Virus record (IMG/VR): IMGVR_UViG_3300036715_004481 | Coordinates: 1-62,882 of that record | DNA: 62,882 nt | Direction: 5' to 3' (one strand) | Origin: a virus | Shown here: piece by piece, positions 1-62,403 of the stretch | How positions within the stretch are numbered: the stretch's first letter is position 1 | Layout: each line of letters starts with the position of its first letter | Position numbers and translations under genes: made by a program | Notes under the pieces: generated by a model | Told to the model about the DNA's origin: nothing | The model's input: the letters and a program-made list of their open reading frames with translations, nothing else | Database searches by the model: none

Positions 1-711
1 TTATGATATAAACATCTGATACTCAGAGTTTCTTCTATCTATCAAACCAGAATAACCATCACGAAGTCCAGTAGTCTTTATTAATTCAGCAGCTTTTTCA
101 AAATCTTTATGTTTAAATGTTTGTATAAAATCCGAAGTTCTAAAAGATGATATACCCATATTAAATGCCAATGATACCATAGTATCAAACTGTTTTTGCG
201 TCATTCTTATATTTATACCCTTTTGCTTCCATTCAGAAAATATACGTTTTACACCATCAGAGGCTTTATTTATATCTTTTTCTAAAAGACTATTTGCTAA
301 ATCCTCAGATATAACTTGTCCAACTCTGAATGCAGATTTACCAATCGGTTCAGCGTGGCCGAACCCTACAGTAACTTTTCCATCGTGTAGATTGTAGGCT
401 TTTAATTTCAATTTTTCATATTTTTTAATATGCTGAATTCCATTTTCACTTATTGACATATTAAGAGGATCATTATATTTATGAACAGTTTCAATCAACA
501 CTTTTTTATCAATAGAATTCAAATCTGAACGATTATTAATAAAATTAACAGCCTGATTTATAGTAAAAACTGCTAATAAACTACCAACTATTAACTTAGA
601 AACACCTATCTTATTTATTGAATTTTTCAATTTATCTAAAAGAGGTTGAAGATTCAATTTCTCAACAATCAAATCATCGCTATACTGATTATAATCTTTA
701 ATATATTCCAT
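1..711 (-). CDS. GH24 (T4-type) lysozyme with N-terminal membrane segment
   Basis: This enzyme is predicted to cleave the peptidoglycan glycan chain. Residues about 88-236 form a phage lysozyme domain: the catalytic glutamate lies in KKYEKLKLKAY and is followed by the characteristic TVGFGH segment. The C-terminal part has the usual FNMG and RR-N-E motifs. About 85 extra residues precede the domain and include a hydrophobic stretch at about 36-59, which could be a signal anchor or a virion-association segment. The first residues, MEYIKDYNQY, resemble the MKYIKKFE start of the neighbouring small-gene family. The stop codon is at the window edge, so the gene is complete. The divergent array begins 42 bp away. 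Confidence 0.85.
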   Translation of the reverse strand: MEYIKDYNQYSDDLIVEKLNLQPLLDKLKNSINKIGVSKLIVGSLLAVFTINQAVNFINNRSDLNSIDKKVLIETVHKYNDPLNMSISENGIQHIKKYEKLKLKAYNLHDGKVTVGFGHAEPIGKSAFRVGQVISEDLANSLLEKDINKASDGVKRIFSEWKQKGINIRMTQKQFDTMVSLAFNMGISSFRTSDFIQTFKHKDFEKAAELIKTTGLRDGYSGLIDRRNSEYQMFIS

Positions 712-752
712 ATGATGTATATATTAAAATAAAATATTAATATATAGAAAAT

Positions 753-1250
753 ATGAAATATATTAAAAAATTTGAAACAATAATAAGTAACTCATCTAAT
801 GATGCACAAAATCATCCGTTATATGAACTAGCTAAACATATAGAAACTATTCTAAAAAAAATTAAAAATATAGATAAATTTGAAAAAAGTATCACTAGAA
901 TATATTTTTCAAAAAAACGAGAAAATATGAACATAACAATAAATTATAGTTGCGATGGATATAGGTTAGTTGATATAGAACTTATAAAATTTGAAAATAT
1001 GAACAATGTTGGCATGAGAGTTGAAACATATGAAAAATATCGAAATATAGATGATATGAGAAACACATCTGATGACTTTTTAAAAATACTTAAAGATATA
1101 CTAAAAAGTTACTATACAAGAACAAATAGAGAATCTATAAGATTTGATTTTAATCTTAATGACTTAAATGATATAATGTATAAATTAAATATTGAAGAAA
1201 TTGTAGAAGAACTAAAACTCAGAAAAGACGCAAATAAATACAATCTATGA
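753..1250 (+). CDS. MKYIK...NKYNL family protein, array member 1
   Basis: I do not recognise a function. The 165-aa protein starts MKYIKKFE and ends ANKYNL, the two signatures of a family repeated across this window. The middle (about residues 20-150) is mixed alpha/beta and is related to array members 3 and 5 positions downstream (1247 and 2387). Its stop overlaps the next start as ATGA, so translation is probably coupled. A TTAATATATA box ends 6 nt before the ATG. The N-terminus resembles T4 capsid-targeting peptides, so packaging inside the head is a possibility, not a demonstrated fact. Confidence 0.8.
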   Translation: MKYIKKFETIISNSSNDAQNHPLYELAKHIETILKKIKNIDKFEKSITRIYFSKKRENMNITINYSCDGYRLVDIELIKFENMNNVGMRVETYEKYRNIDDMRNTSDDFLKILKDILKSYYTRTNRESIRFDFNLNDLNDIMYKLNIEEIVEELKLRKDANKYNL

Positions 1251-1738
1251 AATATATTAAAACATTTGAAAAATTACTAAAACATACAGACGAATATGTG
1301 CTAGAACATAAGTTTAGAGCATTCGCTGAAAAATTAAAATCACTATTAATTCTACTTAAAAAGTGTGATGATTTAAAATATTCAACAGTTAGAATATATT
1401 ATGATAGCTATGGAGAAATTAAAATAATATATAATTATAAATATATAGATTTATATACATTTAGATTAATAACATATGATAGACCAACTGGACTAGAATT
1501 GTGTATAATATCAAATTATAGAAAATTTGGTAAAGATTTAATTAGTGTAAACGATACACTACATGAAATATTTGATAATATTGTTAAAAAATATGAGAAT
1601 GAAAGAAGCTTTTATTATCCAAATTCACATGACATTCCTATTACAGATATTAATAACTTGAGTATATTAGATAAAATCTATGACGAAGTCTCTGATGAAT
1701 TTGAATATATAGTAGCAGCAAATAAATACAATCTATGA
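1247..1738 (+). CDS. MKYIK...NKYNL family protein, array member 2
   Basis: This is a 163-aa paralogue of the preceding gene, with MKYIKTFE at the start and AANKYNL at the end. The middle keeps the pattern of a charged helix, a TVRIYY strand and an aromatic-rich beta region seen in member 1, but identity is low. It overlaps both neighbours by 4 bp. No enzymatic motif, signal peptide or membrane segment is visible. Function unknown. Confidence 0.8.
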   Translation: MKYIKTFEKLLKHTDEYVLEHKFRAFAEKLKSLLILLKKCDDLKYSTVRIYYDSYGEIKIIYNYKYIDLYTFRLITYDRPTGLELCIISNYRKFGKDLISVNDTLHEIFDNIVKKYENERSFYYPNSHDIPITDINNLSILDKIYDEVSDEFEYIVAANKYNL

Positions 1739-2028
1739 AATATATTAAAAAATTTGAAAATATAGAAGAAGAAAAATATATAATCTACACATATGGGTTT
1801 GGAGATTTAGTTTTTAATCTTAGACAACGTAGAGAAAGATTCTCATTGGATTTTGATACATTAGATAAAATTAATACTCATAATTACGAAATTGCAAAAT
1901 ATACAATTGAAGAAGCCGATAACGCTGTAAAATACTTTAATAAAAATTATAAAAATAGATTTGAATTTATAATTATTTCAGAATCTGAATTTGAATTAAT
2001 GAACGCAGCAAATAAATATAACATATGA
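1735..2028 (+). CDS. MKYIK...NKYNI family protein, array member 3 (duplicated copy A)
   Basis: This 97-aa protein starts MKYIKKFE and ends AANKYNI. It is almost identical to the gene at 2878: the two differ at only five residues (positions 10, 16, 21, 39 and 73). That points to a recent duplication inside the array. It contains a GFGDLVFNLRQRRERFSL segment but no motif I can assign. It overlaps its neighbours by ATGA. Function unknown. Confidence 0.8.
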   Translation: MKYIKKFENIEEEKYIIYTYGFGDLVFNLRQRRERFSLDFDTLDKINTHNYEIAKYTIEEADNAVKYFNKNYKNRFEFIIISESEFELMNAANKYNI

Positions 2029-2390
2029 AATATATTAAAACATTTGAAGATATAAACACTGCTGAACCTGAAATTGGTGATTATGTAATAGTATATGATC
2101 AATTTACATACACATCAAATATGATAGAATGGAAAGAATTTATGAATACTCATGTCGGGAGATTAATCAGAAAACGTGATAGTGATATAAATAATACCAA
2201 GAGATTATTATATGATGTAGAATATGAAAATATACCAGAAAATGTAAAAAGAATAATCTTTAAATATAAATTCGACCCAAAAACAAATAAAGCGGTAGAA
2301 AAAGGATTTAATATTGATGAAATTGTGTGTTGGAGTAAAAATAAAGAAGAACTAGAATTAAAATTAGCAGCAAATAAATATAATTTATGA
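2025..2390 (+). CDS. MKYIK...NKYNL family protein with GDYV domain, array member 4
   Basis: This 121-aa member starts MKYIKTFEDI and ends AANKYNL. Its middle contains IGDYVIVYD and a later HVGRLIR segment. This short beta-barrel-like (SH3/KOW-like) pattern is shared with the three genes at 21435-22417 and the gene at 62101. The fold assignment is an inference from the pattern only. It is coupled to its neighbours by 4-bp overlaps. Function unknown. Confidence 0.8.
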   Translation: MKYIKTFEDINTAEPEIGDYVIVYDQFTYTSNMIEWKEFMNTHVGRLIRKRDSDINNTKRLLYDVEYENIPENVKRIIFKYKFDPKTNKAVEKGFNIDEIVCWSKNKEELELKLAANKYNL

Positions 2391-2881
2391 AACACCTAAA
2401 GACATATGAAATGATAGTAAGTTTTAATACCACAACCAATGAAATATATCCGAAACGAAGTATATTCTATAATTTGTTTAAAAAAATAGAAGAAAATATA
2501 GAATTAACAAAAAATAACGATAATTTCAGAAACTCACTAATATCAAGAGAATATGATACAACTTCAGAAGAATTAAAAATTCAATATGTTGGCAAAAACG
2601 AAATACTTTTTAAATTTAGAATATTTGAAATGATTGAAGACGATGGAACAAATAAATGTAGAATAATAATTAAGAAAAATCCAGAATACATTAAAAGCGA
2701 TGTAAAATATCTATTCAATTTTATATCTGAAAAATTAGATATCTATAAACATAATGTTGAATTTCAAACTATAAAATCTTATGAATTCAATAGAGATAAT
2801 ATCGATGATATAATAAAAAAATTAGAAGGATTCGAAGAATATCTAGAAATAACTACGCAAACAGATAAATATAATCTATGA
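2387..2881 (+). CDS. MKHLK...DKYNL family protein, array member 5
   Basis: This 164-aa paralogue of members 1 and 2 starts MKHLKTYEMI and ends TDKYNL. The central region again has a long charged helix followed by a beta-rich segment. It overlaps the previous and next genes by ATGA. No catalytic motif is visible. Function unknown. Confidence 0.78.
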   Translation: MKHLKTYEMIVSFNTTTNEIYPKRSIFYNLFKKIEENIELTKNNDNFRNSLISREYDTTSEELKIQYVGKNEILFKFRIFEMIEDDGTNKCRIIIKKNPEYIKSDVKYLFNFISEKLDIYKHNVEFQTIKSYEFNRDNIDDIIKKLEGFEEYLEITTQTDKYNL

Positions 2882-3171
2882 AATATATTAAAAAATTTGA
2901 AAACACAGAAGAAGAAAAATACTTAATCTACACGTATGAGTTTGGAGATTTAGTTTTTAATCTTAGACAACGTAGAGAAAGATTCTCATTGAATTTTGAT
3001 ACATTAGATAAAATTAATACTCATAATTACGAAATTGCAAAATATACAATTGAAGAAGCCGATAACGCTGTAAAATACTTTAATAAAAATTATCAAAATA
3101 GATTTGAATTTATAATTATTTCAGAATCTGAATTTGAATTAATGAACGCAGCAAATAAATATAATATCTAA
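2878..3171 (+). CDS. MKYIK...NKYNI family protein, array member 6 (duplicated copy B)
   Basis: This is the last gene of the first array, 97 aa, and a near-identical copy of the gene at 1735. It ends AANKYNI and is followed directly by the minus-strand tRNA cluster. A hairpin at 3257-3284 can end transcription of the array. Function unknown. Confidence 0.8.
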   Translation: MKYIKKFENTEEEKYLIYTYEFGDLVFNLRQRRERFSLNFDTLDKINTHNYEIAKYTIEEADNAVKYFNKNYQNRFEFIIISESEFELMNAANKYNI

Positions 3172-3284: not shown

Positions 3285-3292
3285 AGTTTTTG

Positions 3293-3366
3293 TACGCCTG
3301 AAGGTATTCGAAACCCCGACCCTCAGATTAGAAATCTGATGCTCTATCCTGCTGAGCTACAAGCGC
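3293..3366 (-). tRNA. tRNA-Arg (UCU)
   Basis: This is a standard cloverleaf: acceptor GCGCTTG/CAGGCGT, D arm GCTC-GAGC with GG in the loop, anticodon stem TCAGA/TCTGA with loop TTTCTAA, and a T loop TTCGAAT. The anticodon UCU reads AGA, the likely main arginine codon in such AT-rich DNA. No CCA is encoded. Confidence 0.9.
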
Positions 3367-3422
3367 ATAATATATTTATATTCAAAAATAAATTAAAAGT
3401 TTATAAATAGTAAATATTTTGT

Positions 3423-3509
3423 TGGAGCTGCTAGAGGGATTCAAACCCCCGATGTTCTTTCGAATCTACATTACAAGTGTAGCGCACTCGGTCACTATGC
3501 GATAGCAGC
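3423..3509 (-). tRNA. tRNA with long variable arm, anticodon loop reads UGU (Thr)
   Basis: The acceptor stem GCTGCTA/TAGCAGC is perfect and a CCA end is encoded. The anticodon stem CTACA/TGTAG is perfect and the loop CTTGTAA gives UGU (Thr). The variable region is about 15 nt with a TTC-GAAA-GAA hairpin, which is typical of Leu, Ser or Tyr tRNAs, not Thr. Shifting the loop by one base gives GUA (Tyr), but breaks the stem. The identity is therefore uncertain. Confidence 0.75.
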
Positions 3510-3521
3510 ATTTATTATTTG

Positions 3522-3592
3522 AGCACCAATTCAGAATCAAACTGAAATTTCTTGGTTACGACGCAAGAGTAATATCATTATACGACAAGTGC
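3522..3592 (-). tRNA. Divergent tRNA, possible anticodon CGU (Thr)
   Basis: The element is 71 nt. The T arm TTCAG/CTGAA is perfect. The acceptor stem has one mismatch, and the D stem is only 3 bp. The anticodon stem has a C-C mismatch next to the loop GTCGTAA, which would give CGU. It may be a decaying or unusual tRNA; the isotype is weak. Confidence 0.5.
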
Positions 3593-3597
3593 AATTG

Positions 3598-3671
3598 TTG
3601 ACGGATTGAGAATCGAACTCAAGACTTTTTGCATGTCATACAAACACTCTAACCAACTGAGTTATCCATCA
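3598..3671 (-). tRNA. tRNA-Val (GAC)
   Basis: The cloverleaf is complete: acceptor TGATGGA/TCCGTCA, D arm ACTC-GAGT, anticodon stem TTTGT/GCAAA with loop ATGACAT, and T arm TTGAG/CTCAA with loop TTCGATT. The anticodon GAC reads valine GUC and GUU. Confidence 0.85.
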
Positions 3672-3678
3672 ATATTTG

Positions 3679-3749
3679 TGTCCCCAAGTAGAATCGAACT
3701 ACTTCCCTCTGCATGTAAAACAGATACGCTTCCGTTACGCCACAGGGAC
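3679..3749 (-). tRNA. tRNA-Val (UAC)
   Basis: Acceptor GTCCCTG/TGGGGAC, a short D arm with GG, anticodon stem TCTGT/GCAGA with loop TTTACAT, and T arm AGTAG/CTACT with loop TTCGATT make a normal 71-nt tRNA. The anticodon is UAC. Confidence 0.85.
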
Positions 3750-3783
3750 AATTTTTAGTTATTTACATAACTATCTGATTATG

Positions 3784-3855
3784 AGCGACATGAGAATTTT
3801 GAAATCTCGACCTAAAGTTTGGAAAACTTCCACTCTGCCTCTGAGCTAATGTCGC
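3784..3855 (-). tRNA. tRNA-Gly (UCC)
   Basis: The acceptor stem GCGACAT/ATGTCGC is perfect and the D arm is GCTC-GAGT. The anticodon arm GAAGT/ACTTT with loop TTTCCAA gives UCC. The T arm has one weak closing pair. Confidence 0.85.
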
Positions 3856-3868
3856 ATTTTTAATTTAT

Positions 3869-3944
3869 TGGAGCGATAGAAGGTAATCGAAACCTCATCC
3901 TCTGCTCGGCAAGCAAATGCACTAAACCGTTGTGCTACTATCGC
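3869..3944 (-). tRNA. tRNA-Gly (GCC), CCA encoded
   Basis: Acceptor GCGATAG/CTATCGC is followed by an encoded CCA. The D arm is GCAC-GTGC with GG in the loop. The anticodon arm TTTGC/GCAGA with loop TTGCCGA gives GCC. Confidence 0.87.
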
Positions 3945-3980
3945 ATTATTTATAATCATTTATATAACTATCTGATTATG

Positions 3981-4056
3981 TGGAGCTTATCGAGAACGAT
4001 TCGATCTGCTTTTCTCATTGCAAGTGAGATGACCACTCCAAGCAGTCCCAAGCCCC
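3981..4056 (-). tRNA. tRNA-Ala (UGC), unusual T loop
   Basis: Acceptor GGGGCTT/AAGCTCC and the perfect anticodon stem TCTCA/TGAGA with loop CTTGCAA give UGC. The T stem ATCGA/TCGAT is perfect, but its loop reads ATCGTTC instead of the usual TTCGANT form. The D arm is weak. It may be drifting from function. Confidence 0.65.
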
Positions 4057-4066
4057 ATTTTAATTG

Positions 4067-4153
4067 TAGAATAGGAGAGATTCGAACTCTCAGTGTCACT
4101 ATGACGCTTGCTTCCAGGGCAAGACCGCTACCTGATTACGGGCATACTACTCT
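4067..4153 (-). tRNA. Class II tRNA, Ser (GGA)-like or Pro (UGG)-like
   Basis: Acceptor AGAGTAG/CTATTCT, T arm GAGAG/CTCTC with loop TTCGAAT, and a 15-nt variable arm with a GTCA/TGAC hairpin make an 87-nt class II tRNA. The anticodon stem CTTGC/GCAAG frames the loop CCTGGAA: read strictly this is UGG with an odd C33; shifted by one base it is GGA (Ser) with the usual U33. The long variable arm favours Ser, and a normal tRNA-Pro (UGG) lies nearby. Confidence 0.65.
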
Positions 4154-4162
4154 ATATTTTTG

Positions 4163-4239
4163 AAGTCCTGACGGGATTCGAACCCGCATTCTCATCCGTT
4201 ATGCGCTTATTGTTTAGAAAACAATGTCATTACAGGACC
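4163..4239 (-). tRNA. tRNA-like gene without a canonical D arm, anticodon-like loop UCU (Arg-like)
   Basis: The 77-nt element has acceptor GGTCCTG/CAGGACT and T arm GCGGG/CCCGT with loop TTCGAAT. The anticodon-like hairpin ATTGT/ACAAT, loop TTTCTAA, begins 7 nt after the acceptor stem. It is followed by a 21-nt stretch containing GCATAACGGATGA, which looks like a D loop placed on the wrong side. The stem covaries with the element at 3173-3249. A normal tRNA-Arg (UCU) is already present at 3293. Confidence 0.55.
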
Positions 4240-4255
4240 ATAATTATATTTTTTG

Positions 4256-4328
4256 TATGGATGGGGATGCTCGAAATCCCGACCACTTGGTCCCAAACCA
4301 AGCATTCTACCTACTGAACTACATCCAT
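4256..4328 (-). tRNA. tRNA-Pro (UGG)
   Basis: Acceptor ATGGATG/CATCCAT, D arm GTTC-GAAT, anticodon stem CTTGG/CCAAG with loop TTTGGGA, and T arm GGGAT/ATCCC with loop TTCGAGC form a standard tRNA. The anticodon is UGG. Confidence 0.9.
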
Positions 4329-5064: not shown

Positions 5065-5439
5065 TTATAGATTATAACTTCTGATACTTTTTTTATAATT
5101 TTTAACTTGTTTTGTAATATCGGTATCTAAATTAACTTCTGGAACGAACTCTCCCATCTCTTTTTTTTCATCATCAAAATCTTGTGTACCAAATTCTATA
5201 CCCATATCAGACAAATCTAATTTTATAACTTTAAAATCAGGTTGTTTTGATTCATGATATTTATTCATATGTAAATATAGAATTTCATCATTCGGCGAAA
5301 AAACTGTTCCAACACATTCATATCCACAGATTTCACTATCTGCAAAAACATCAATAATTTCATCAATAAACTCTTTTCTATTTATTGCATCAAAATCTTT
5401 ACCATTATAAGTATACGCTTCAAATTTTTTAATCTCCAT
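5065..5439 (-). CDS. MEIKKFE...YNL family protein
   Basis: This 124-aa protein starts MEIKKFEAYTYNG and ends SIRSYNL, so it carries weak forms of both end signatures of the MKYIK/KYNL family. The middle is acidic with aromatic beta strands. It follows the scaffold-like gene at 5456 closely on the same strand. No known domain is recognisable. Confidence 0.7.
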   Translation of the reverse strand: MEIKKFEAYTYNGKDFDAINRKEFIDEIIDVFADSEICGYECVGTVFSPNDEILYLHMNKYHESKQPDFKVIKLDLSDMGIEFGTQDFDDEKKEMGEFVPEVNLDTDITKQVKNYKKSIRSYNL

Positions 5440-5455
5440 AATATGTCATTATTTT

Positions 5456-6340
5456 TTATAGTTTACCAATTTCTTCTTTTAATCCTAAAGCGTTTACTAG
5501 TTGTTCCAATTCATTTTTATCCATATTTAAGATTTTATTTAAAATCATTTTCTTAGCATTATCATTAGTTGTTCCTTTCATTTGTTTTGACAAATAATCA
5601 ATATCATTACTTGTATTTGCACCTAGAGTATTCAATAATTGCATTTTAGGTTTCAATAAATCAAATAATGTTGTATTAATCCAATTTATAGCAGATTTTT
5701 TATATGCAACTAAATCTGCGTCAGTATTTCCAGCAGGTGCTTCTGTTGTGTTAGTTGTAGTAACATTTGTCGCAGGATCATCAGCTTCCAAAATTTTACG
5801 AATATTATACATCACATTCTCTGTTGTTGGAGTTGTTGGAGTAGTAGATACCGTTGCTTGAGGCTTATCTAAACCAGCACCAGTTTTAACTTGTGGAACA
5901 ACAGCCTGTAAAACATACTCACTAACAGCATTAGAAAATTGATCTTCTGGATAGCTCATAAGTGTTTGTAATCTCTTATCTCTTGATGTTTTAAATATTT
6001 CTTGCATTGTAAATTCTTTATTTTGAAGTTTATTTACAATAGATAATAATGAAAAATAAAAATATTTTACAGAATCACTTAATATATTATTAACAGCGTC
6101 TATTGAATCTGCTTTATTTATTTCATTTTGTGTATTTGTTTGATTTGCTTTCAAAAAACTTTGATATAAATATGAAACATTTTTTTCAGTGTCAACTTTT
6201 TTAGTGAAGTTTGTAAATAAATTATTTAAATTCTGATTAGGATTTTTAAATATATTATTATATTGTGCTTTTAAAAAGTCACTAACAGAAGATAATACAC
6301 CTTCTGTTAAAAATTCACTATATTTAGTTATATTTTTCAT
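5456..6340 (-). CDS. Putative capsid-internal or scaffold-like protein with T4-type targeting peptide
   Basis: The 294-aa protein begins MKNITKYSEFLTEGVLSS. In T4, capsid-targeting peptides such as MKTYQEFIAEA are cut after LxE or IxE by the prohead protease gp21, and SEFLTE-G fits that rule. The rest is mostly helical, with a Thr/Pro-rich linker around residues 160-205 and an NMDKNELEQLVNALGL-type helix near the end. It may be a head core or internal protein. No enzyme motif is visible. Upstream lies the remnant at 6341-6480, whose stop overlaps this start. Confidence 0.65.
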   Translation of the reverse strand: MKNITKYSEFLTEGVLSSVSDFLKAQYNNIFKNPNQNLNNLFTNFTKKVDTEKNVSYLYQSFLKANQTNTQNEINKADSIDAVNNILSDSVKYFYFSLLSIVNKLQNKEFTMQEIFKTSRDKRLQTLMSYPEDQFSNAVSEYVLQAVVPQVKTGAGLDKPQATVSTTPTTPTTENVMYNIRKILEADDPATNVTTTNTTEAPAGNTDADLVAYKKSAINWINTTLFDLLKPKMQLLNTLGANTSNDIDYLSKQMKGTTNDNAKKMILNKILNMDKNELEQLVNALGLKEEIGKL

Positions 6341-6607: not shown

Positions 6608-7915
6608 TTATGTAGCAGGGTTAGTTTCTGATGTAGCAGCTGGTTTAACACCAGTTTTTGCTGTTTTAACTTTTTTTGTAGCTGTATTTGCTGCTGGTGT
6701 GGTTTCTCCTTGTGCTGCTGGTGTTACTTCACCTTGTACTGCTGGCGCTTCTTTTGACAAATTCATTAATGCACCTGCATAAACTTTAAATTTATTACCA
6801 TTTTCACCAATATGAACTTCAGCAAGTTGTTTATTTTCATCATAAGAATCAATCTTAACTTTAACTTCTTTTCCACCTTCTGCACTATAATAGTTATATT
6901 CTTTGCCAACTTCAGGTTTAAATGTAGTATCAACATTTTCAGCTCTAAAATCTTGTTCTTTATTAGCACTATCACCAAATGTATAATACGCTTTAATTTT
7001 ACCAGGTTCTTGTGATTTATTAGTGATTTTAATAATTTTTATTGTACCATCATCACGTTTATATCTATATGGCATACCGACTTTTAATTTTTTACCATCA
7101 ACATCAATTTCAACATATTGTGCTTTATCTAAACTATTCCACTTATTATTTAAATCTTTTGCAAGTTTATTTCTTTCAGCAGCAAGTTTAGTTGCAGATA
7201 CTTTATCTCCACCTTTTTCATATAAACTTATCTCAGCGTTCAAAAATGCGAGTTTGAATTCTTCTTTTTTATTATCTACAATAATAGCCAATTTTGGATT
7301 TTTTTCTCTACCACCCATGGATGTTATAACTCTTTCCATTTCATTCATAGCTTTATTTTGAAGTGACGTAAGTATATTTTGAAGAACTGTTTGTTTTTTC
7401 TTTAATGCATCAACTGTCATTTTTATATTATTTTGATCTTCTTGCTTTGCAGTATTATCTGGTTTTGGTTGTTCTGTTGCTTTTACCGCATTAGCCTCAG
7501 CTGTATCTTCATTTAATCTACTTTTAATATGAACCTTTACAGACTCTGATGTTTTTACTGCAGATGGTGCTACGGTTGTTGCTTCTGTTGTTGTTTTTGG
7601 TGCAACTGTTGTTGTTTCAGTTGTTGTAGTTTGATTTCCACCATCTTTTGCTTTCAAATTATTCAATTGTTCTTCTGATGTTAAGCTTAAATCTACCTGA
7701 GCTTTTCTTTTAAACTCATCTTCTATCAACTTAATATACTTATTATAAATATCTTCAATCTTTTGAGCACCGTTTATTTTTTTTATATATGTTTTTGCTT
7801 TATTGAACATATTTCCTAAAAAATTAAACAATCCTTCATTAATCAATTGCTCGTTTAATTTTTGATTCTTATTACGAAGATTTAAAAAGTCACTTTTAGA
7901 ATATAAATTTTTCAT
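6608..7915 (-). CDS. Putative head scaffold/core or internal protein with low-complexity linkers
   Basis: The 435-aa protein begins with a charged helix and then has EQLINEGLFNFL, which fits the T4 gp21-type cleavage rule (IxE followed by G). A Thr/Ala/Pro-rich linker occupies about residues 95-140, a lysine-rich helical part follows, then two beta-rich segments (about 270-390), and an Ala/Thr/Lys-rich tail resembling a histone-like tail. A TTAATATATA element lies 19 bp upstream of the start. Its size and composition fit a morphogenesis or internal head protein; identity with a known family is not established. Confidence 0.6.
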   Translation of the reverse strand: MKNLYSKSDFLNLRNKNQKLNEQLINEGLFNFLGNMFNKAKTYIKKINGAQKIEDIYNKYIKLIEDEFKRKAQVDLSLTSEEQLNNLKAKDGGNQTTTTETTTVAPKTTTEATTVAPSAVKTSESVKVHIKSRLNEDTAEANAVKATEQPKPDNTAKQEDQNNIKMTVDALKKKQTVLQNILTSLQNKAMNEMERVITSMGGREKNPKLAIIVDNKKEEFKLAFLNAEISLYEKGGDKVSATKLAAERNKLAKDLNNKWNSLDKAQYVEIDVDGKKLKVGMPYRYKRDDGTIKIIKITNKSQEPGKIKAYYTFGDSANKEQDFRAENVDTTFKPEVGKEYNYYSAEGGKEVKVKIDSYDENKQLAEVHIGENGNKFKVYAGALMNLSKEAPAVQGEVTPAAQGETTPAANTATKKVKTAKTGVKPAATSETNPAT

Positions 7916-10574: not shown

Positions 10575-11039
10575 TTATTCTAAAAATTTTAACAATTCTA
10601 ATTGGTACTTCTCAATTATTTTTACAGCATCTTTCATAGAAAAGAAGCCAGCTTCAACAGTTTCATCCTTTAAAAAATTACCTAATATCATATTATTAAA
10701 CAATTTAACATTAATATCATCTTTACCGATATTCACAGCATAGCATGTTAATTTTTTATTGACTTTTGATTTAACGTAATTTATAACTACTTTATTTGCA
10801 TCTTTCAACTGCTCTCTTGTCAACTTTATTCTAGACTCTTCTTTTAACTCTCTTAAAGCTGTATCTATTTCACTAACACCTGGTTCTACATGTCCCTTAG
10901 GAATGGACCATTTTTTCATTCTTTTTTTAAACTTCTTAGGTCTAACTAATAATATCTTATTATTATATATTAGAACAACTCCTGATAAATTATGATTTTC
11001 ATTAACAGATTCTCTCAAATATTCGTAAAAATTCATCAT
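10575..11039 (-). CDS. Nudix hydrolase with capsid-targeting-like N-terminus
   Basis: Nudix enzymes hydrolyse nucleoside diphosphates linked to another group. The box GHVEPGVSEIDTALRELKEE keeps the catalytic RELKEE core, but the first conserved Glu is Val and the last conserved Gly is Arg. A WSIPKGH lead-in is present. The 154-aa protein begins MMNFYEYLRESVNE, which resembles a T4 capsid-targeting peptide with an LRE-S cleavage site. The enzyme might therefore be packaged and injected. It sits between the HAD gene and the 70-aa gene with a much clearer targeting peptide. Confidence 0.85.
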   Translation of the reverse strand: MMNFYEYLRESVNENHNLSGVVLIYNNKILLVRPKKFKKRMKKWSIPKGHVEPGVSEIDTALRELKEESRIKLTREQLKDANKVVINYVKSKVNKKLTCYAVNIGKDDINVKLFNNMILGNFLKDETVEAGFFSMKDAVKIIEKYQLELLKFLE

Positions 11040-11056: not shown

Positions 11057-11269
11057 TTATTCAATTTCTGGCACAATTTCACCAGATTCTGGTTGATTAT
11101 CAACAATATTAATAGGAATATTTTTTATGCCTTTAAAATCTATAAATGCATATTTTTCGCCCTCTCGCCAATGAATTTTATCAACAATATCACCAATACT
11201 TGGCAATTGATCTAATGTTATAGTAAATGATTCTTTTATAAACTCCTGATATGTTCTCATTTTACGCAT
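11057..11269 (-). CDS. Small putative internal head protein with T4-like capsid-targeting sequence
   Basis: The 70-aa protein contains MRTYQEFIKES at residues 4-14. The T4 internal-protein targeting peptide is MKTYQEFIAEA, so the match is close and ends in an IKE-S site suited to a gp21-type protease. The start may be ATG at 11269 or the internal ATG at 11260. After cleavage about 55 residues would remain, including a GDIVDKIHW segment. I expect it to be packaged in the head. The function after injection is unknown. Confidence 0.65.
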   Translation of the reverse strand: MRKMRTYQEFIKESFTITLDQLPSIGDIVDKIHWREGEKYAFIDFKGIKNIPINIVDNQPESGEIVPEIE

Positions 11270-12573: not shown

Positions 12574-12664
12574 AAGATTTGTGTCCCATAAAAAAATAAT
12601 TAAAAAAAATTTACACACAATAAACTTGAACTTCAAAAATTTTTATATAAAGATAAAAAATCAT

Positions 12665-14363
12665 ATGATATTGACTAAAAATATAGAAATAAGAGTAAAT
12701 CCAAACAATATGAAATATTTAAAAGAATTTAACGAAAATATTATAAACAATGAGATTATCCAAATACCAATAGAAAAACTATCTAAAAATTCACATTTAA
12801 AAATAGATGTTAAGTGTGATTTGTGTGAATTTGAAAAGAGCATATCTTATCACTCTTACATTAGAAACATTAAAAACACAAACTTATATACTTGTCAAAA
12901 ATGTAGTGGAATAAAAAACAAGCAAACAAATTTAAAAAAATATGGTGTAGAATATCCAATACAACTAACAGAAATAAAAAAAAGAAGAAAGAAAAATAAT
13001 CTAGAAAAATATAATGTAGATGAACCATCAAAATTAGATTCAATAAAAGAAAAAATAAAAAACACAAAAAAACTAAAATATGGTAATGAAAACTATAATA
13101 ATATTGAAAAAACAAAAGAAACTAAAAAACTAAAATATAGTGATAAAAACTACAACAATAGAGAAAAGGCAAATAATACTTGCATTAAAAAATATGGAGT
13201 CGAAAATGTTTCACAATCAGAAAACATCAAAATTAAAAAGTGTGAAACGACAATGAAAAATTATAATTCAGATAATTATAGTAAATCGGAAACATATAAA
13301 ATGAATAGAATTGATATTCTAAAAGAAAAATACAAAGACATAAACATATTAGAAGTGTGTGATGATAAATTGACATTAGATTGTGATTGCAATAAGCATC
13401 ATATTTATAATATAGATGTGACAATTTTAAGAAATAGAATAATTTATAAAACAGTTCTATGCACAATATGTAATCCGATATCATCATATTCTAATAGCGG
13501 ATATGAAATAAATCTTCAAAATTTTATAAAAGAGAATTATAATGGTAAAATTTTATTTAATTCTAGAAACGTGATAAAGCCTTTAGAATTGGATATTTAT
13601 TTACCAGATTTAAAATTAGCATTTGAATTTAATGGTTTATATTGGCATAGTGAAGCAAACAAAGAAAATAATTATCATTTAAATAAAACGGAGGAATGTG
13701 AGAGCCAAGGAACACAATTAATTCATATATATGAAGATGATTGGCTATATAAACAAGATATTGTAAAATCTATTATATTAAACAAATTAGGTAAAAACAC
13801 AAAATAATATTTATGCCAGAAAATGTGAAATTAGAAAAATATCTGATAACAATTTAATTAGATTTTTCTTAGATAAAAATCATATACAAGGATTTGTTGG
13901 GTCAAAAATTAAAATCGGGTTATTTTATAATAATGAATTAGTAAGTCTGATGACTTTTGGTAATCGTAAAATTGCTATGGGTAAAAAGTCTACAAATGAA
14001 GGAGAATACGAATTGCTAAGATTCTGTAATAAACTCAACACTAATATTGTAGGTGGTGCTAGTAAGCTATTTAAATATTTTGTTAAAAACTATAATCCTA
14101 CAGAAATAATGACTTATGCTGATAGAAGTTTTAGCCAAGGCATATTGTATAAAAAATTAGGATTTAAAATACAAGGTAAAACGGAGCCAAATTACTACTA
14201 TATTATTGATAACATTAAGCATCATAGATTCAATTTTCGAAAAGATTTACTTATAAAACAAGGATATGATAAAAATAAAACAGAGCATGAAATTATGCTA
14301 GAAAGAAAAATATATCGTATTTATGATTCTGGCAATTTAAAATTTATATATACTCAAAATTAA
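12665..14363 (+). pseudogene. Frameshifted homing endonuclease (EDxHD/Vsr-like)
   Basis: An ATG at 12665 (preferred to GTG at 12581) opens a protein with an N-terminal cysteine-knuckle domain, KYGVE-type repeats (about residues 105-215), and a nuclease core with ELDIYLPDLKLAFEFNGLYW and IHIYEDDW. The frame closes at 13807. The rest of the same protein (IYARK..., MTFGNRK...) continues in another frame to 14363. The intact relative at 19902 shows that one single-base shift near 13800, in an A-rich stretch, separates the halves. It is either a decayed gene or a sequencing error. It lies between hub-assembly and virion genes. Confidence 0.75.
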
Positions 14364-19901: not shown

Positions 19902-21440
19902 GTGAACATAGAAGAATTATTAAAAGAGAATGATAAATCTGGAAAGATGTTTAAAGAAAAATATTTAAAAAAATATTACGAACCAATTTATACTGAAATA
20001 ATTAAATATTCTATAGATTATAATTTAGAATCTTTAAAATTTGTAGAAAAAATGTATTACTTCTATCACAACATAAAAAATATTTTAGTATGTAAATGTG
20101 GAAATAAACTTAATATGATAAATTTCAATAAAGGATATAGCGCACACTGTAGTCAAAAATGCTCACACGAAGATGAACAAACATTAGAAAAAAGTAAAAT
20201 AAAATGTATCGAAAAATATGGTGTAGATAATCCTAAAAAAAATAAAGATGTTCAAGAAAAGGCTTACGCAACAAACTTAGTTAAATTTGGCTTTAAGCAT
20301 TCCTCACAAAACAAAGAAGTTCAGGAAAAAATGAAAAAAACAAATCTTGAAAGATTAGGTGTAGAATTCCCAGCACAAGATAAAAATGTTAGATCAAAAT
20401 ATTATAAAGCTATAATAGATAAAAATTTATTAAAATATGATAATTTAATAAATATAGATTATGAAAATAAAAATATGCTGTTTAAATGTGACTTCGGAGA
20501 AGAACACAATTTCAAAATATCAATAGATTTATTTCAAAATAGAAAAAGAACTAATATAAAATTATGCACAATTTGTAACACAAAATTTATGTCTCAATCT
20601 GAATCAGATTTTTTAAAAATATTTAATGATGGTATAATATTACACAGTAGAAGTATAATAACACCTTTAGAATTGGACGCATATATTCCAGAATTAAAAT
20701 TAGCATTTGAATTTAATGGTTTATATTGGCACAGTGAGGTAAATAAAGAAAACAATTATCATGTGAATAAAACTGAAGAATGCGAAAAGAAAGGTATACA
20801 ATTAATTCATATTTATGAAGATGATTGGTTATATAAACAAGATATAGTAAAATCTATAATATTAAACAAATTAGGCAAATCTGAAAGAATTTTTGCTCGT
20901 AAGACAGAATTGAAAGAGATTGATGATAACAAAATAGTTAGAGAGTTTTTAGAAAAAAATCACATTCAGGGATTTGTTGGTTCTAAAGTTAAAATTGGAT
21001 TATTTTATAATGATGAATTAGTAAGTCTGATGACTTTTGGTAATCGCAGAGTTGCTATGGGCAAAAAGTCCACAAAAGAAGGAGAATATGAATTATTAAG
21101 GTTTTGTAATAAACTTAACACCAATATTGTTGGTGGTGCGAGTAAATTATTTAAATACTTTATTAAAAATTATAAACCAACAAAAATTACAACTTACGCT
21201 GATAGAAGTATTAGTCAAGGTAAGCTATACGAAACATTAGGATTTGAATTTATTGGTAAAACTGATCCAAACTACTATTATATTATTAATGGAGTTAAAT
21301 ATCACAGATTCAATTTTAGAAAAGATTTACTAGTAAAGCAAGGATATGATAAAAATAAAACTGAACACGAAATAATGTTAGAAAGAAAGATATATAGACT
21401 TTATGATTCTGGAAATTTAAGATATATTTATAAATTATAA
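19902..21440 (+). CDS. Homing endonuclease (EDxHD/Vsr-like), intact
   Basis: The 512-aa protein has an N-terminal zinc-binding part (CKCGNKLNM, CSQKCSHED), KYGVDNP-type repeats (about 105-165), and the nuclease core ELDAYIPELKLAFEFNGLYW with IHIYEDDW. The C-terminal domain contains IQGFVGS, MTFGNRR and TYADRS segments. Over the nuclease and C-terminal domains it is closely similar to the broken copy at 12665-14363. Such enzymes cut a related phage genome and spread by repair. It sits next to the tail tube gene. Confidence 0.85.
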   Translation: MNIEELLKENDKSGKMFKEKYLKKYYEPIYTEIIKYSIDYNLESLKFVEKMYYFYHNIKNILVCKCGNKLNMINFNKGYSAHCSQKCSHEDEQTLEKSKIKCIEKYGVDNPKKNKDVQEKAYATNLVKFGFKHSSQNKEVQEKMKKTNLERLGVEFPAQDKNVRSKYYKAIIDKNLLKYDNLINIDYENKNMLFKCDFGEEHNFKISIDLFQNRKRTNIKLCTICNTKFMSQSESDFLKIFNDGIILHSRSIITPLELDAYIPELKLAFEFNGLYWHSEVNKENNYHVNKTEECEKKGIQLIHIYEDDWLYKQDIVKSIILNKLGKSERIFARKTELKEIDDNKIVREFLEKNHIQGFVGSKVKIGLFYNDELVSLMTFGNRRVAMGKKSTKEGEYELLRFCNKLNTNIVGGASKLFKYFIKNYKPTKITTYADRSISQGKLYETLGFEFIGKTDPNYYYIINGVKYHRFNFRKDLLVKQGYDKNKTEHEIMLERKIYRLYDSGNLRYIYKL

Positions 21441-21761
21441 ATTAAACTTATCCGCTTCATATTGCATCATAACATCTTCTATAGTTTTTCCTACATATTT
21501 TATATAATTAGAATGAATAATAATCATACCATCTTTATCAAAATATTGTTCAATATTAAAATCTATATTATGATATTTTATTTGAACATTCTTGTTAACT
21601 TTATTAACAACAACAATTTGTCCAATATTATTCTCTAAAAAATAAATATATTTATTTGGTGATACACCAGAAGCAAAAGCTTCGCTAACGTTTAGTAAAA
21701 CATAATCATTTACTTCAATTTCATTTGTATTAAAAAATTCATATATTTTCAAATGTTTCAT
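21435..21761 (-). CDS. MKHLK...DKFNL family protein with DYVLL domain
   Basis: This 108-aa member starts MKHLKIYEFF and ends ADKFNL. It has VNDYVLLN near residue 17 and NNIGQIVVV, the same short beta-barrel-like pattern as its two neighbours and the gene at 2025. It is the last of three genes read leftward. Function unknown. Confidence 0.75.
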   Translation of the reverse strand: MKHLKIYEFFNTNEIEVNDYVLLNVSEAFASGVSPNKYIYFLENNIGQIVVVNKVNKNVQIKYHNIDFNIEQYFDKDGMIIIHSNYIKYVGKTIEDVMMQYEADKFNL

Positions 21762-21762
21762 A

Positions 21763-22083
21763 TTACAAATTATAATTTTCCATTGATATCATAGCTTCAA
21801 CTTCTTCTTTTGTTTTTGCATGATATTTTATTTGAGTCAAAACAACCGTATAATATTTATTTTTATAGAGCCAAGTTTTCACATCTTTCGGAGCATTTTC
21901 ATATGATATTTTAGCAGTCAGATCATCTGCATAAATTTCTTCTATTTGACCAATAGTATCATTTAAAAAAATAGTTAACGGAGAAACTCTATTATATCTA
22001 TAATTATAATACAGCAAAACATGATCACCAACAGCAATATCACGCAAATAAACAACAAATTCAAATTTTTTCAAATGCGTCAT
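21763..22083 (-). CDS. MTHLK...ENYNL family protein with GDHVLL domain
   Basis: This 106-aa member starts MTHLKKFEFV and ends MENYNL. It has VGDHVLLYY, NDTIGQIEEI and a C-terminal AKTKEEVEAM helix. The pattern matches its neighbours on both sides, so the three look like tandem duplicates that have diverged. Function unknown. Confidence 0.75.
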   Translation of the reverse strand: MTHLKKFEFVVYLRDIAVGDHVLLYYNYRYNRVSPLTIFLNDTIGQIEEIYADDLTAKISYENAPKDVKTWLYKNKYYTVVLTQIKYHAKTKEEVEAMISMENYNL

Positions 22084-22084
22084 A

Positions 22085-22417
22085 TTAAATATTATATTTT
22101 GTAGATACGATTTTTAGTTCTAGTTCATCTATTGTTTTAGCATAATATTTTATATCACTAATATGTCTATCAATAGAATCATACATATCAAAAACATATC
22201 TAACATCTGATGGTATATTTTTATATTGAATAGTAACAATACTATTACGTATATTTGTTATTTTTCCGATATTATTATTCACAAACAAAAAAAATTTGTA
22301 CTTATTAGTTTTCGATAAGACATCAATATATAAAAAATCAATATCCAATAATACATAGTCACCGATTCTAATATCACCGATATTGTACATATGTTCAAAC
22401 TTTTTCAAATGTTTCAT
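22085..22417 (-). CDS. MKHLK...TKYNI family protein with GDYVLLD domain
   Basis: This 110-aa member starts MKHLKKFEHM and ends STKYNI. It has IGDYVLLDID, NNIGKITNI, a NIPSDVRY segment also found in the gene at 2025, and the helix AKTIDELELK. A TATATAGAAC box stands just before its ATG, as in other members of the family. It is the first of three genes read leftward. Confidence 0.75.
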   Translation of the reverse strand: MKHLKKFEHMYNIGDIRIGDYVLLDIDFLYIDVLSKTNKYKFFLFVNNNIGKITNIRNSIVTIQYKNIPSDVRYVFDMYDSIDRHISDIKYYAKTIDELELKIVSTKYNI

Positions 22418-22699: not shown

Positions 22700-23108
22700 T
22701 CATAAATTATATTTTTTTGCAGCTCTAACACAGTCATCAACAACAATTTTTTGTGTATAAGAATCACCAAATCTATCGCCAGTAAATTCCTCATAATCTG
22801 GAACATTATTAAAAAATTTATCAATACTTTTTAATAATTTTTAAAAATATTCACTTTCAATATTAATTTCGACATCAGAATCATTATTAATTATTGTCAA
22901 TATATTATTATATAAATATATCTCAACACCTTCACTTATATAAGTGTTATATTTCCTACCTATTAATATCTCTTTAATAGAAGTTAAATCCTCTTGTACA
23001 AGTTATAAAACATAATCATCATTATCAATTTCAAATAATCCTGTATGACTCATAGGACTAACACCAAAATTCACATTTTTCACTTTCAAAATATTTCAAA
23101 TGTTTCAT
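22700..23108 (-). pseudogene. Decayed MKHLK...KKYNL family gene
   Basis: From ATG at 23108 the frame reads MKHLKYFESEKCEFW and then hits TAG after a frameshift. The following frame shows FEIDNDDYVL, two TAA codons, and finally DDCVRAAKKYNL with TGA. Both end signatures remain, so this is a full-length paralogue inactivated by one shift and two stops. It fills the gap between the terminator at 22651 and the endonuclease gene. Confidence 0.7.
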
Positions 23109-29003: not shown

Positions 29004-29627
29004 ATGGGGAAAAACAATAATGAACTTGAGGTTCAATTCGAAGAAAGAACAGGAGTAAACTTTCAATTTTTTTACAAAAATCACAAACCAAAATTAATGT
29101 GGTATATCACAAAGTTCACAAAAGATGTTGAGATAGCCGAAGATCATGTAGAAGATGCTTTTATTCAGGCACTATTAAACATTAGTACTTATAAAAGACC
29201 AGATGAAGGTGGTGCACAAGTAAACACTTGGGTTTACAAGATTGCGGAGAACATCGTAAAAAAATCACACAAAGATAGTGAAAGATTACCAACAGATTCT
29301 TTAGATAAAGATATGGCAATAAATTTCAATCTATCCAATGTAGTACCGTATGAAGATGATAGAAAAGAAGCTGAGGAATATAATATATTCGTCAAAAAAG
29401 CAAACATTATTAAAGAAACAATATATGGCTTACCTGACAAAGACTCAAAATATAAAAAGGTTTTAATAATGAGGGAAATTGAGGGAATGGCATACAAAGA
29501 AATTTCAGATGAATTAAATATTAATCTTTCTACAATAAAATCACAAATCAAAAAAGGTAGAAACATAGTTAAAAAGAAAGTTTTAAAGAAATTTCAAGAA
29601 ATTGATTACAACGACACAGAAGAATGA
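29004..29627 (+). CDS. ECF-type sigma-70 family factor
   Basis: The 207-aa protein has region 2 (FYKNHKPKLMWYITKF, DVEIAEDHVEDAFIQAL, then VNTWVYKIAENIV) and region 4 (YKKVLIMREIEGMAYKEISD and LNLSTIKSQ-like helix-turn-helix), separated by an acidic linker. This is the two-domain layout of ECF sigma factors. It should redirect host RNA polymerase to phage promoters, the role gp55 has in T4. Its stop overlaps the next start as ATGA. It is the best candidate reader of the TTAATATATA elements. Confidence 0.85.
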   Translation: MGKNNNELEVQFEERTGVNFQFFYKNHKPKLMWYITKFTKDVEIAEDHVEDAFIQALLNISTYKRPDEGGAQVNTWVYKIAENIVKKSHKDSERLPTDSLDKDMAINFNLSNVVPYEDDRKEAEEYNIFVKKANIIKETIYGLPDKDSKYKKVLIMREIEGMAYKEISDELNINLSTIKSQIKKGRNIVKKKVLKKFQEIDYNDTEE

Positions 29628-60037: not shown

Positions 60038-60553
60038 ATGATAAAAAATTTTAAATTATTTAACGAAAAATATATACATACATCACAAGATAAAATTGAT
60101 GATATGAACATTATGCAGGAATTTGCCAAAAAATTTGAAGATATATTTGAATATCGTTTAAATCTTAATATAGATAATGACTCAAAATTTAGAACATATT
60201 TAGGACATGGTGCAAATAAGAGTTATACAGGAACAGTAGAAATATATAATCAAGAATACTATAAAACAAAAAGAAAAATAAGATACTCTATCAACATAAT
60301 CACAGATATAAATCCTGCAGGTATAAGCGGACCTGATGATATAGGTAGAACATTTACAATAGACTTTGATATCAAACAAGAAAATAGGCTAACTAATAAA
60401 ATCCCAGATTTCTATAGCTATGAAAGAACTATGGATGAAATTATAGAAAAATTTAATAATTATGTATATTCAACACTAAATATAAAATACTTATCAGAAA
60501 AAGATCTAGAACAAAAAAAGATTGAAAAATCAGCAAACAAATATAATTTATAA
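60038..60553 (+). CDS. MIKNFKLF...NKYNL family protein
   Basis: This 171-aa protein starts MIKNFKLFNEKY and ends KSANKYNL. The middle (ELNI-like helix with MQEFAKKFEDIFEYRL, then beta strands) is like array members at 753, 1247 and 2387. It heads the second array. Function unknown. Confidence 0.78.
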   Translation: MIKNFKLFNEKYIHTSQDKIDDMNIMQEFAKKFEDIFEYRLNLNIDNDSKFRTYLGHGANKSYTGTVEIYNQEYYKTKRKIRYSINIITDINPAGISGPDDIGRTFTIDFDIKQENRLTNKIPDFYSYERTMDEIIEKFNNYVYSTLNIKYLSEKDLEQKKIEKSANKYNL

Positions 60554-60554
60554 A

Positions 60555-60814
60555 ATGAAAAAATTAAAAACATTCGAAAGTTTTTGGAAAACACTTAAAT
60601 CTAAAACTGAAAATTTTGGTGATAGAATGACACAAATTAAAAGAAACAAAAACAATAGTTATAATATTGGCGATTATAATAATTAAAAAAGATCTTTCAA
60701 AATAAACAAACAAATATAGTATATTTACATGGTGATAATTTTGTTAGAGAAGCAAGCATTAACGAAATAGAAGAATTTGAAATAATAAAAATCACAACAA
60801 AATATAATTTATAA
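60555..60814 (+). pseudogene. Frameshifted MKKLK...TKYNL family gene
   Basis: ATG at 60555 reads MKKLKTFESFWKTLKSK and SYNIGDYNN to a stop. Other frames continue with IIKKDLSKINKQ and LHGDNFVREASINEIEEF to ITTKYNL and TAA at 60814. Both family ends and a GDY motif remain, but two shifts break the gene. Confidence 0.65.
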
Positions 60815-60816
60815 AA

Positions 60817-61398
60817 ATGATAAAAAAATACTTGCAGTATATTAAAGAATCTATTACAACCGATGTAGATGGTTTATTAGATAGCATTAGAGAAGAAAAG
60901 ACAGACTTCTACGCTTTACATCTATCTAATGATAACTATATCAACAAAACAATTGATACGGTTTATGATGAAGCAGAATTTAATAAACAGTTATTTAAAG
61001 AAAATTTAAAGAAAGGCGAATTAGACTCCACTATGTATATTGAGAACTTTTTGAGAAAGGATATAGATATGAAATTTTTCTTTCTTTATAGTAGAAATGA
61101 AACAGTTTTAGATAATCCAAATTTTTTAATATTACAATACTACAAAGATGATAAATGGCATCCGATTGAAATATATAAAATTAAAGGTAAAGTCGAAAAC
61201 TTCTACGAAAAATTAACCGCAAAAACTATCAAATTAACATTTGATAATGTAACTTACATTTACACAACTTCAAATTCTGGTAACAATTGGATATTAAAGG
61301 AAACAGATAAAAAAACAGAAAAATTCAAAGAGAATTTGGAAACAGAAGATATTAAAACTCTCATCAGAGATGGCGCAAAATTAAATATAATTGAATGA
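60817..61398 (+). CDS. Putative capsid-targeted protein of unknown function
   Basis: The 193-aa protein begins MIKKYLQYIKESITTDVDG. The YIKE-S segment fits a T4-type capsid-targeting peptide and prohead protease site. The rest is mixed alpha/beta, without the KYNL ending. Its stop overlaps the next start as ATGA. Function unknown. Confidence 0.7.
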   Translation: MIKKYLQYIKESITTDVDGLLDSIREEKTDFYALHLSNDNYINKTIDTVYDEAEFNKQLFKENLKKGELDSTMYIENFLRKDIDMKFFFLYSRNETVLDNPNFLILQYYKDDKWHPIEIYKIKGKVENFYEKLTAKTIKLTFDNVTYIYTTSNSGNNWILKETDKKTEKFKENLETEDIKTLIRDGAKLNIIE

Positions 61399-61739
61399 AG
61401 CACTTAAAGTCATTTGAATCAGCACTATAAAAAGATATAGATTTTGATAAAGTTTATAGATATGGTAATAGTGGCTATATTACTATTGGTAAAATTAAAC
61501 CATATAAATATCAACACTTAGAACCTAAAAATAAATATTGTCTATATGATATGTTTGATAATGATTATGATGACAATTATCGTAAACATAGAAAATACTT
61601 AGATGAAGTTGATTTTAATCACAAATCAAGATTCATAAAAATCTTAACTTCAGAAGAACTTTTATATGTAAGAGAAGCCAATCCAGAAGAAACAGAAAAA
61701 TACAACTTTGCAATAGCCATAAATAATTATAATTTATGA
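61395..61739 (+). pseudogene. MKHLK...NNYNL family gene with one in-frame TAA
   Basis: From ATG at 61395 the frame reads MKHLKSFESAL, then TAA at 61428-61430, then continues without a break (KDIDFDKVYRYGNSGYITIG and onward) to NNYNL and TGA at 61739. The family start, end and both ATGA overlaps are kept. A restart at the ATG at 61551 could make a 62-aa fragment. Confidence 0.65.
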
Positions 61740-62104
61740 AATACTTAAAAAATTTTGAAAATAATAATACATCTTATTTTTATAGAATAGATGGACGAGA
61801 TTTTTTAATCTGTGATATAGACACTTGTGGGGAAAGTGAACACACATTTGATATAAAATTCTTTGATTTTGCAGAAAATATAGAATTGTAGAGAGTTTTA
61901 AGAACTTGTGCGATACCTGATATAGAAGATTGTGCAAGATGCTTAGCTTCATTTGGACATAAAGATGAATCTAAAAAATTCAACAAACTGATGATGAACC
62001 CAACACTAAGAATATTAGTAGAGAATGAAAAATTGTTTATTTAGGTTTTAAGAATATTTAATCCTGATGATATCAGAGTAAAAACAAATGATTATAATTT
62101 ATGA
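61736..62104 (+). pseudogene. MKYLK...NDYNL family gene with two in-frame TAG codons
   Basis: ATG at 61736 opens MKYLKNFENNNTSYFYRIDG. The same frame runs 122 codons to NDYNL and TGA at 62104, interrupted only by TAG at 61889-61891 and TAG at 62042-62044. No frameshift is present. It is either an early-stage pseudogene or a readthrough gene. Confidence 0.55.
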
Positions 62105-62403
62105 AATACTTGAAAAAATTTGAAGATAATAATTTAAAATATAGAGTTGGTGATTGGGTAAAAATAAAAATCATACCCGACTTTGTTCACGGTATTGAAA
62201 GAATTGATGATAACCTATTTGTTAAAATTGAAAATATACAACATGATAAAAATTATGGACAATATGATTCGTTATACGAATTTAAAACACTACTAACAAA
62301 TCAAATGATTTTTGGCAATCAATATTACATTAGAAGAAAAATGACAAAAAAAGAAATAAAAGATTTTAAAATTAAAATTGAAGCACAAAAATATAACATA
62401 TAA
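62101..62403 (+). CDS. MKYLK...QKYNI family protein with GDWV domain
   Basis: This 100-aa member starts MKYLKKFEDNN, has YRVGDWVKIKI, the short beta-barrel-like pattern of the GDYV subgroup, and ends EAQKYNI. It is the last gene of the second array and is followed by a terminator. Function unknown. Confidence 0.78.
   Translation: MKYLKKFEDNNLKYRVGDWVKIKIIPDFVHGIERIDDNLFVKIENIQHDKNYGQYDSLYEFKTLLTNQMIFGNQYYIRRKMTKKEIKDFKIKIEAQKYNI

Follow-up and report, generated by a model that had tools for sequence, protein, structure and literature searches.

The window analysed here, a stretch of 62,882 nucleotides from an IMG/VR record, is a 62.9-kb piece of a large T4-like virus. The tail sheath encoded in it shares 47% identity with that of LR756501, a 735-kb phage. 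At positions 753-3171, all six head-to-tail genes with common ends that an earlier note had described were found, each overlapping its neighbor by 4 bp (ATGA). The start motif of the six genes is MK[YH][IL]K[KT][FY]E and the end motif [ND]KYN[LI], referred to below as N-tag and C-tag. Starts read MKYIKKFE or MKYIKTFE and ends ANKYNL or ANKYNI, apart from the fifth gene, which deviates at both termini (Table 1). The blocks noted at the junctions do recur: a query comprising positions 1200-1300 matched 1718-1760 (98%), 2008-2048 (93%) and 2862-2903 (93%), and more weakly 739-786 (83%) and 2345-2411 (76%).

Table 1. Tagged genes, targeting-like starts and neighboring features of the window (the arrow marks the putative cleavage point)
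Position	Strand	Feature	Remarks
1..711	-	phage lysozyme (PF00959)	N-tag-like start MEYIKDYNQY; divergent from array at 753-3171
718..727	-	late-type promoter motif TTAATATATA	6 nt before lysozyme gene
737..746	+	late-type promoter motif TTAATATATA	6 nt before gene 1
753..1250	+	tagged gene 1, 165 aa	MKYIKKFE...ANKYNL; late-type promoter motif 6 nt upstream
1247..1738	+	tagged gene 2, 163 aa	ATGA overlap; MKYIKTFE...ANKYNL; G004 ortholog 1088-1585, 44%
1735..2028	+	tagged gene 3, 97 aa, duplicate of gene 6	middles 97% identical in DNA; homology stops within tags
2025..2390	+	tagged gene 4, 121 aa	GDYV SH3/KOW-like barrel family (family alignment)
2387..2881	+	tagged gene 5, 164 aa	variant tags MKHLKTYE and TDKYNL
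2878..3171	+	tagged gene 6, 97 aa, last of array	C-tag kept, TAA stop, no overlapping gene
3292..4328	-	tRNA cluster	adjoins array at 753-3171
5065..5439	-	tagged gene MEIKKFEAY...SYNL	G004 ortholog ends NKFNI
5456..6340	-	conserved protein	targeting-sequence-like start MKNITKYSEFLTE↓G
6608..7915	-	conserved protein	MKNLYSKSDFL...LINE↓G; late-type promoter motif 19 nt upstream
10575..11039	-	NUDIX protein	start MMNFYEYLRE↓S
11057..11260	-	core protein	start MRTYQEFIKE↓S, near-identical to T4 ipII/ipIII MKTYQEFIAE↓A
21435..21761	-	tagged barrel gene b3	ends ADKFNL; no tagged gene after b3
21763..22083	-	tagged barrel gene b2	
22085..22417	-	tagged barrel gene b1	promoter TTTATATATA at 22423-22432, 5 nt away; AlphaFold model
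22700..23108	-	decayed tagged gene	MKHLKYFE start and AAKKYNL end intact, frames differ
29004..29627	+	sigma-70 family factor, phage-encoded	candidate late sigma
60038..60553	+	tagged gene	MIKNFKLFNE...ANKYNL
60555..60815	+	decayed tagged gene	MKKLKTFE start; TTKYNL end in other frame
60817..61398	+	conserved protein	MIKKYLQYIKE↓S; G004 version MIKKYLQYITE↓S
61395..62104	+	two tagged genes with in-frame stops	61395-61739, 61736-62104; ends NNYNL, NDYNL
62101..62403	+	tagged gene, last of array	MKYLKKFE...AQKYNI

The further copies proposed at 21435-22417, 22700-23108 and 60038-62403 are real, some of them decayed. The three minus-strand tagged genes at 21435-22417 are separated by 1-bp gaps in place of ATGA overlaps, and at 60038-62403 intact tagged genes are mixed with remnants. 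By a strict rule, both motifs are present in nine window genes, the strict C-tag alone giving 11. The window is collinear with the relative G004 over about 55 kb, yet the tagged genes at matching loci differ.

Elsewhere, the window encodes a TonB-dependent receptor with plug and barrel domains (15540-17492; Pfam matches above cut-off), an unusual cargo that is perhaps receptor-related or involved in superinfection exclusion, and a ribonucleotide reductase large chain carrying an intein splicing domain (37313-40786). Related genes lie beside tagged loci at 12581-14363, 19902-21440 and 23120-24880, and at 150228-151868 in the relative G001. This repeated family gave one DUF7487 match, looks homing-endonuclease-like by inspection and includes one copy that is apparently split.

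Extent of the tagged family and diversity of the middles

Relatives were picked via the junction pattern and their genes called with a simple custom caller; as approximate counts and no unbiased survey, a C-terminal K[YF]N[LI] was detected in 101 of 563 genes of G001 (330 kb), 38 of 392 of G004 (235 kb), 77 of 390 of G005 (168 kb) and in 72 genes of G009 (222 kb). From the internal frequency of the motif, 0.13 (G001), 0.07 (G004) and 0.08 (G005) such ends were expected. The N-motif occurred at 55, 15 and 51 starts of G001, G004 and G005 and internally once, never and never, respectively; odds ratios for the co-occurrence of both motifs in these contigs ranged from 28 to 102, and a control with the reversed pattern gave 0 in all genomes. 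Tagging at both ends is far beyond chance, and the family is larger than the earlier note had reported. Tagged genes account for 20% of the G005 contig and 13% of the G001 contig and form runs of at most 10 genes, with ATGA at 41 of 58 and 49 of 69 junctions, respectively. C-tagged genes missing the strict N-tag mostly have variants of it such as MITKFKIYE, MKTYQQFNE or MKKYDQFINES.

Searching IMG/VR with the back-translated junction yielded 100 stretches; when the pattern was widened in a second search, at least 118 were obtained in viral contigs. The only match of the junction pattern in 84,980 cellular genomes (L157) lies in a chromosomal region without a tagged ORF and is a chance match. 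No homologs of the genes at 2025-2390 and 22085-22417 were found in cultured phages by tblastn, and a literature text search for the commonest N-tag strings gave no match. N-tag-like starts were also seen at L131:15015-15656 and in L109 near 32970, on proteins with an LIVVDVQ motif that are isochorismatase/nicotinamidase-like in appearance; the L131 protein had no Pfam match. Another relative, G011, harbors long tandem repeats with a period of about 66 bp (141104-143575).

That the middles differ was borne out by 115 tagged proteins of G001 and G004, which could be aligned only at MKxxKxFE...KFNL (mean column identity 6%). Domain matches among the tagged middles comprised 12 ankyrin, two LRR, one ExoX-like_C and one DUF4240 match, and the biggest group is a small SH3/KOW-like barrel. 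Pfam and PHROG matches for single middles of the window were all sub-threshold or weak. AlphaFold models the protein encoded at 22085-22417 (mean pLDDT 86) with residues 1-8 disordered (pLDDT < 50), a beta barrel after them and a C-terminal helix that extends into the C-tag; Foldseek with this model gave weak KOW/SH3-like matches alone (best E 0.05). None of 299 tagged proteins revealed a membrane-like segment, and the Cys content of this set was halved. The middles are slightly acidic (about -0.04 per residue), and no likeness to known inhibitors was found among them by Pfam/PHROG and domain-model searches.

Selection on the tags

The junction blocks had been proposed to be conserved as DNA, beyond the requirements of the encoded protein. 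Codon changes were analysed across 66 pairs of orthologs from G001 and G005. Synonymous change was scored at two-fold codons whose amino acid is conserved. Amino acid changes affected 12-13% of the C-tag codons, 17% of the N-tag codons and 31% of those in the middles, while synonymous differences amounted to 25-32% in C-tags, 18% in N-tags and 14% in middles. Genes located last in both arrays, with nothing downstream, showed the same pattern as other tagged genes. Since the tag residues are kept while their synonymous codons vary at least as much as those of the middles, even without a downstream gene, selection acts on the protein and not on a DNA block. Thus, there is no excess over protein conservation, and the junction as a conserved DNA element was rejected. 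The tags are conserved as protein, link unrelated folds and are restricted to phages.

Resemblance to T4 internal proteins and possible role of the tags

The internal proteins of T4 are highly diverse, their sole conserved part being an N-terminal targeting sequence, and their lysines contact DNA (PMC3012670); they are injected inhibitors that have been identified by their N-terminal signal (PMC12373910). T4 was used as a yardstick by scoring a matrix made from tagged N-termini on 374 T4 ORFs. With this matrix, which is Lys-rich, ipI (MKTFKEF) ranked first of 374 at all widths tried when the filtered set was used, and first or second with the whole tagged set. The ipII/ipIII start (MKTYQEFIAEA) occupied ranks 6-10 (filtered set, widths 7-10) and dropped to 42-98 at width 12. 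A targeting-plus-cleavage motif, [YF]xx[FY][ILV]xE, was present at 21 starts versus 2.1 expected. Five of these belong to C-tagged genes (e.g. MKKYDQFINES), and the window core proteins MRTYQEFIKE↓S and MKNITKYSEFLTE↓G and the NUDIX protein MMNFYEYLRE↓S are also among them. The L025 homolog of the 60817..61398 protein starts with MKYLKQYEQYIKE↓T, bridging both start types.

N-tag pattern matches were also detected in the huge published phages LR745206 and LR756500 (18 and 8, respectively), but none in LR756501, MaF61 and PTm1. In LR756500, N-tags are fused to T4-like cleavage motifs (MKYIKEYEEFILE↓A, MKYIKEYEDFINE↓A and MKYIQTYKDFLIE↓S), and the starts MKYIKEYEEFILEA and MKYIKEYEDFINEA of the huge phages resemble T4 ipIII MKTYQEFIAEA. 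The (L/I)xE cleavage site is thus present in LR756500 members, the five C-tagged starts and the core proteins, but absent in most array genes, which have the short MKYIKKFE form. A short N-terminal sequence resembling the T4 capsid-targeting sequence is conserved on unrelated proteins, as it is in the T4 type.

What the arrays have in common with T4 IPI, IPII and IPIII (and Alt) is a very short conserved N-terminus on small unrelated proteins and a variable locus near lysozyme and tRNAs. T4 has the order ipII-ipIII-e-nudE...tRNAs-ipI, the window array sits between lysozyme and tRNA cluster, and here a late-type promoter motif is present. What separates them is the number of genes, three in T4 versus tens to about a hundred per contig here, the long coupled arrays, the second, C-terminal tag, the lack of the (L/I)xE site in most members, and slightly acidic middles with ankyrin, LRR and SH3/KOW-like folds. 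The statement that no system of this kind has been described was too strong, since T4 internal proteins have been (PMC3012670); the C-tag has no counterpart in T4. The giant Salmonella phage SPN3US also packages many head proteins, some of them cleaved by the prohead protease, and ejects them; as far as the parts of these descriptions compared here go, a shared two-ended tag is not described for its ejection-protein bolus (PMC5694885, PMC10052503).

The C-tag itself varies between phages. Twelve N-tagged proteins of LR756500, which fall into seven unrelated groups, have a different common C-terminus, NADDFGFFDN and variants (L266, L110, L268, L271), while the N-tagged proteins examined in LR745206 have no common C-tag. 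Thus, the two tags can be separated, and the C-tag is specific to the lineage.

The promoter motif TTWATATATA, an A/T-only sequence within an A/T-rich genome, was found upstream of 27 of 43 array-first tagged genes and of 8 of 43 in the reverse-strand control. Further window genes with this motif upstream are those for sheath, tube, hub, Hoc-like and tail proteins, the lysozyme gene and one GGACT gene, while the VWA and AAA genes are preceded by a host-like TTG-N17-21-TAnnTTTG form. TTWATATATA usually lies 4-8 nt from the ATG in array genes (15 of 27) and about 20 nt away in genes of other kinds, of which seven of 99, mostly N-tagged, have it within 8 nt. By likeness to T4 late promoters, the array mRNAs would be nearly leaderless. 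Judging from these motifs, the tagged proteins are probably expressed late, together with the virion genes.

It is probable that the shared ends serve as tags for protein sorting, the N-tag being a T4-type capsid-targeting sequence of cargo that is packaged and injected, and the C-tag a second label. The simplest interpretation of the sequences is an internal-protein system that has been greatly expanded and supplied with an additional tag at the C-terminus, and that would work like the T4 internal proteins. Packaging, cleavage and injection are steps that we infer, as are the targets in the host and the function of the C-tag. The N-tag (MK[YH][LI]Kx[FY]E and variants) would recruit late-made accessory proteins into the prohead, where a phage protease may clip it, clear (L/I/V)xE↓ sites being present in some members. 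Having been packaged along with the DNA, the tagged proteins would be injected during infection and then disarm or re-program the host. As the front tag resembles the T4 head-loading label, the proteins are probably host-manipulating cargo delivered with the DNA. A T4 internal protein is known to inhibit a GmrSD-type host defence. The C-tag (K[YF]N[LI]-COOH, or NADDFGFFDN in LR756500) may be a second, lineage-specific address or an integrity label for cargo. A more specific version, which we regard as tentative, is that in huge phages of this group 13-20% of a contig forms an exchangeable arsenal of proteins, with a tag for head entry at the N-terminus and a C-tag that differs between phages (K[YF]N[LI] or NADDFGFFDN) and would be read by a second, putative receptor; the latter might act as loading checkpoint, in ejection or as post-injection address.

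Counting against head cargo are the short N-tags without cleavage site in most array genes, the acidic middles, and the fact that T4 lacks a C-tag and has three such proteins rather than about a hundred. Neither an S77/S78 prohead protease nor a Gp23-type capsid protein was recognized in these contigs, which are possibly fragments, and the S77 and Gp23 controls failed as well. It is conceivable, albeit unlikely, that the tags sort proteins to another phage structure such as a replication compartment, the membrane or the tail: protein-level tags on unrelated folds would suit any address label, the C-tag lacks a T4 counterpart, and the ankyrin and LRR repeats suggest interaction scaffolds, but the match to T4 internal proteins including the cleavage motif, the late-type promoter motif shared with virion genes and the lack of membrane segments argue for the head. 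If head cargo is the correct reading, a short tag directly reads out the proteins that huge phages, including uncultured ones, may inject, hundreds of candidate effectors and anti-defence proteins could be listed from sequence alone, and the C-tag would be a new sorting signal without T4 precedent.

Gene exchange and expression signals

According to the earlier note, the array is cassette-like, and its conserved junction blocks of about 40 bp would enable homologous recombination to swap, duplicate or delete whole genes. Part of this idea stands, namely the fixed ends, the differing middles and the gain or loss of whole genes with coupled junctions intact. Comparison of G005 with the collinear G001 revealed the insertion of genes 240, 269 and 237 and the replacement of one slot, all with undamaged junctions; an LRR gene occupies different arrays in these two relatives, and both recent duplicates found (the window genes at 1735 and 2878; L036) lose homology at the tags. 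By contrast, recombination as the proposed cause fails in the codon test, the tag codons not being conserved beyond protein need, and many tagged genes are solitary or located at array ends. Adjacency was kept for 39 of 45 tagged versus 73 of 90 untagged genes, and orthologs were present for 83% versus 73%, 57% versus 58% and 59% versus 61% of tagged and untagged genes. No array change had occurred in the same-strain pairs G005/G012 (113 kb, 99.999%) and G009/G011 (208 kb, 99.994%). Median ortholog identity was lower in tagged genes (67.8% versus 76.5% in untagged ones).

High-rate shuffling and raised copy-number change were thus rejected, as order and content of the tagged genes are as stable as those of untagged genes and same-strain contigs are unchanged. 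As to the prediction that breakpoints fall in the junction block, the homology of the two recent duplicates does end at the tags, but tagged genes rearrange no faster than untagged ones. Since the duplicates end there, occasional recombination between tag-coding stretches may take place, without explaining the conservation of the tags. Recombination as the reason for this conservation is largely refuted, and the cassette explanation as a whole is quite unlikely. Integron-type gene cassettes are likewise small head-to-tail genes with conserved ends and variable middles; here, however, the conserved ends encode protein and are selected as such, and conservation of a DNA site was not found.

It is highly improbable that the ends are expression signals, with C-tag DNA providing the next gene with a hidden promoter or a reinitiation element, and N-tag DNA tuning (leaderless) translation: the array genes are coupled by ATGA, and AATAAATA, one base from the promoter core AATATATA, lies 6 nt before most internal ATGs of the window at equal spacing, but the commoner K-F-N form breaks this core, the C-tag is kept where nothing lies downstream and synonymous sites are free. 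C-tag DNA as the promoter of the next gene was rejected on these grounds, despite the near fit in the window. What would suit an expression signal is a DNA-level oddity, the strong enrichment of AAC as Asn codon of the C-tag before ATGA, which reaches 58-70% in G001 and G005 compared to 10-13% in bulk.
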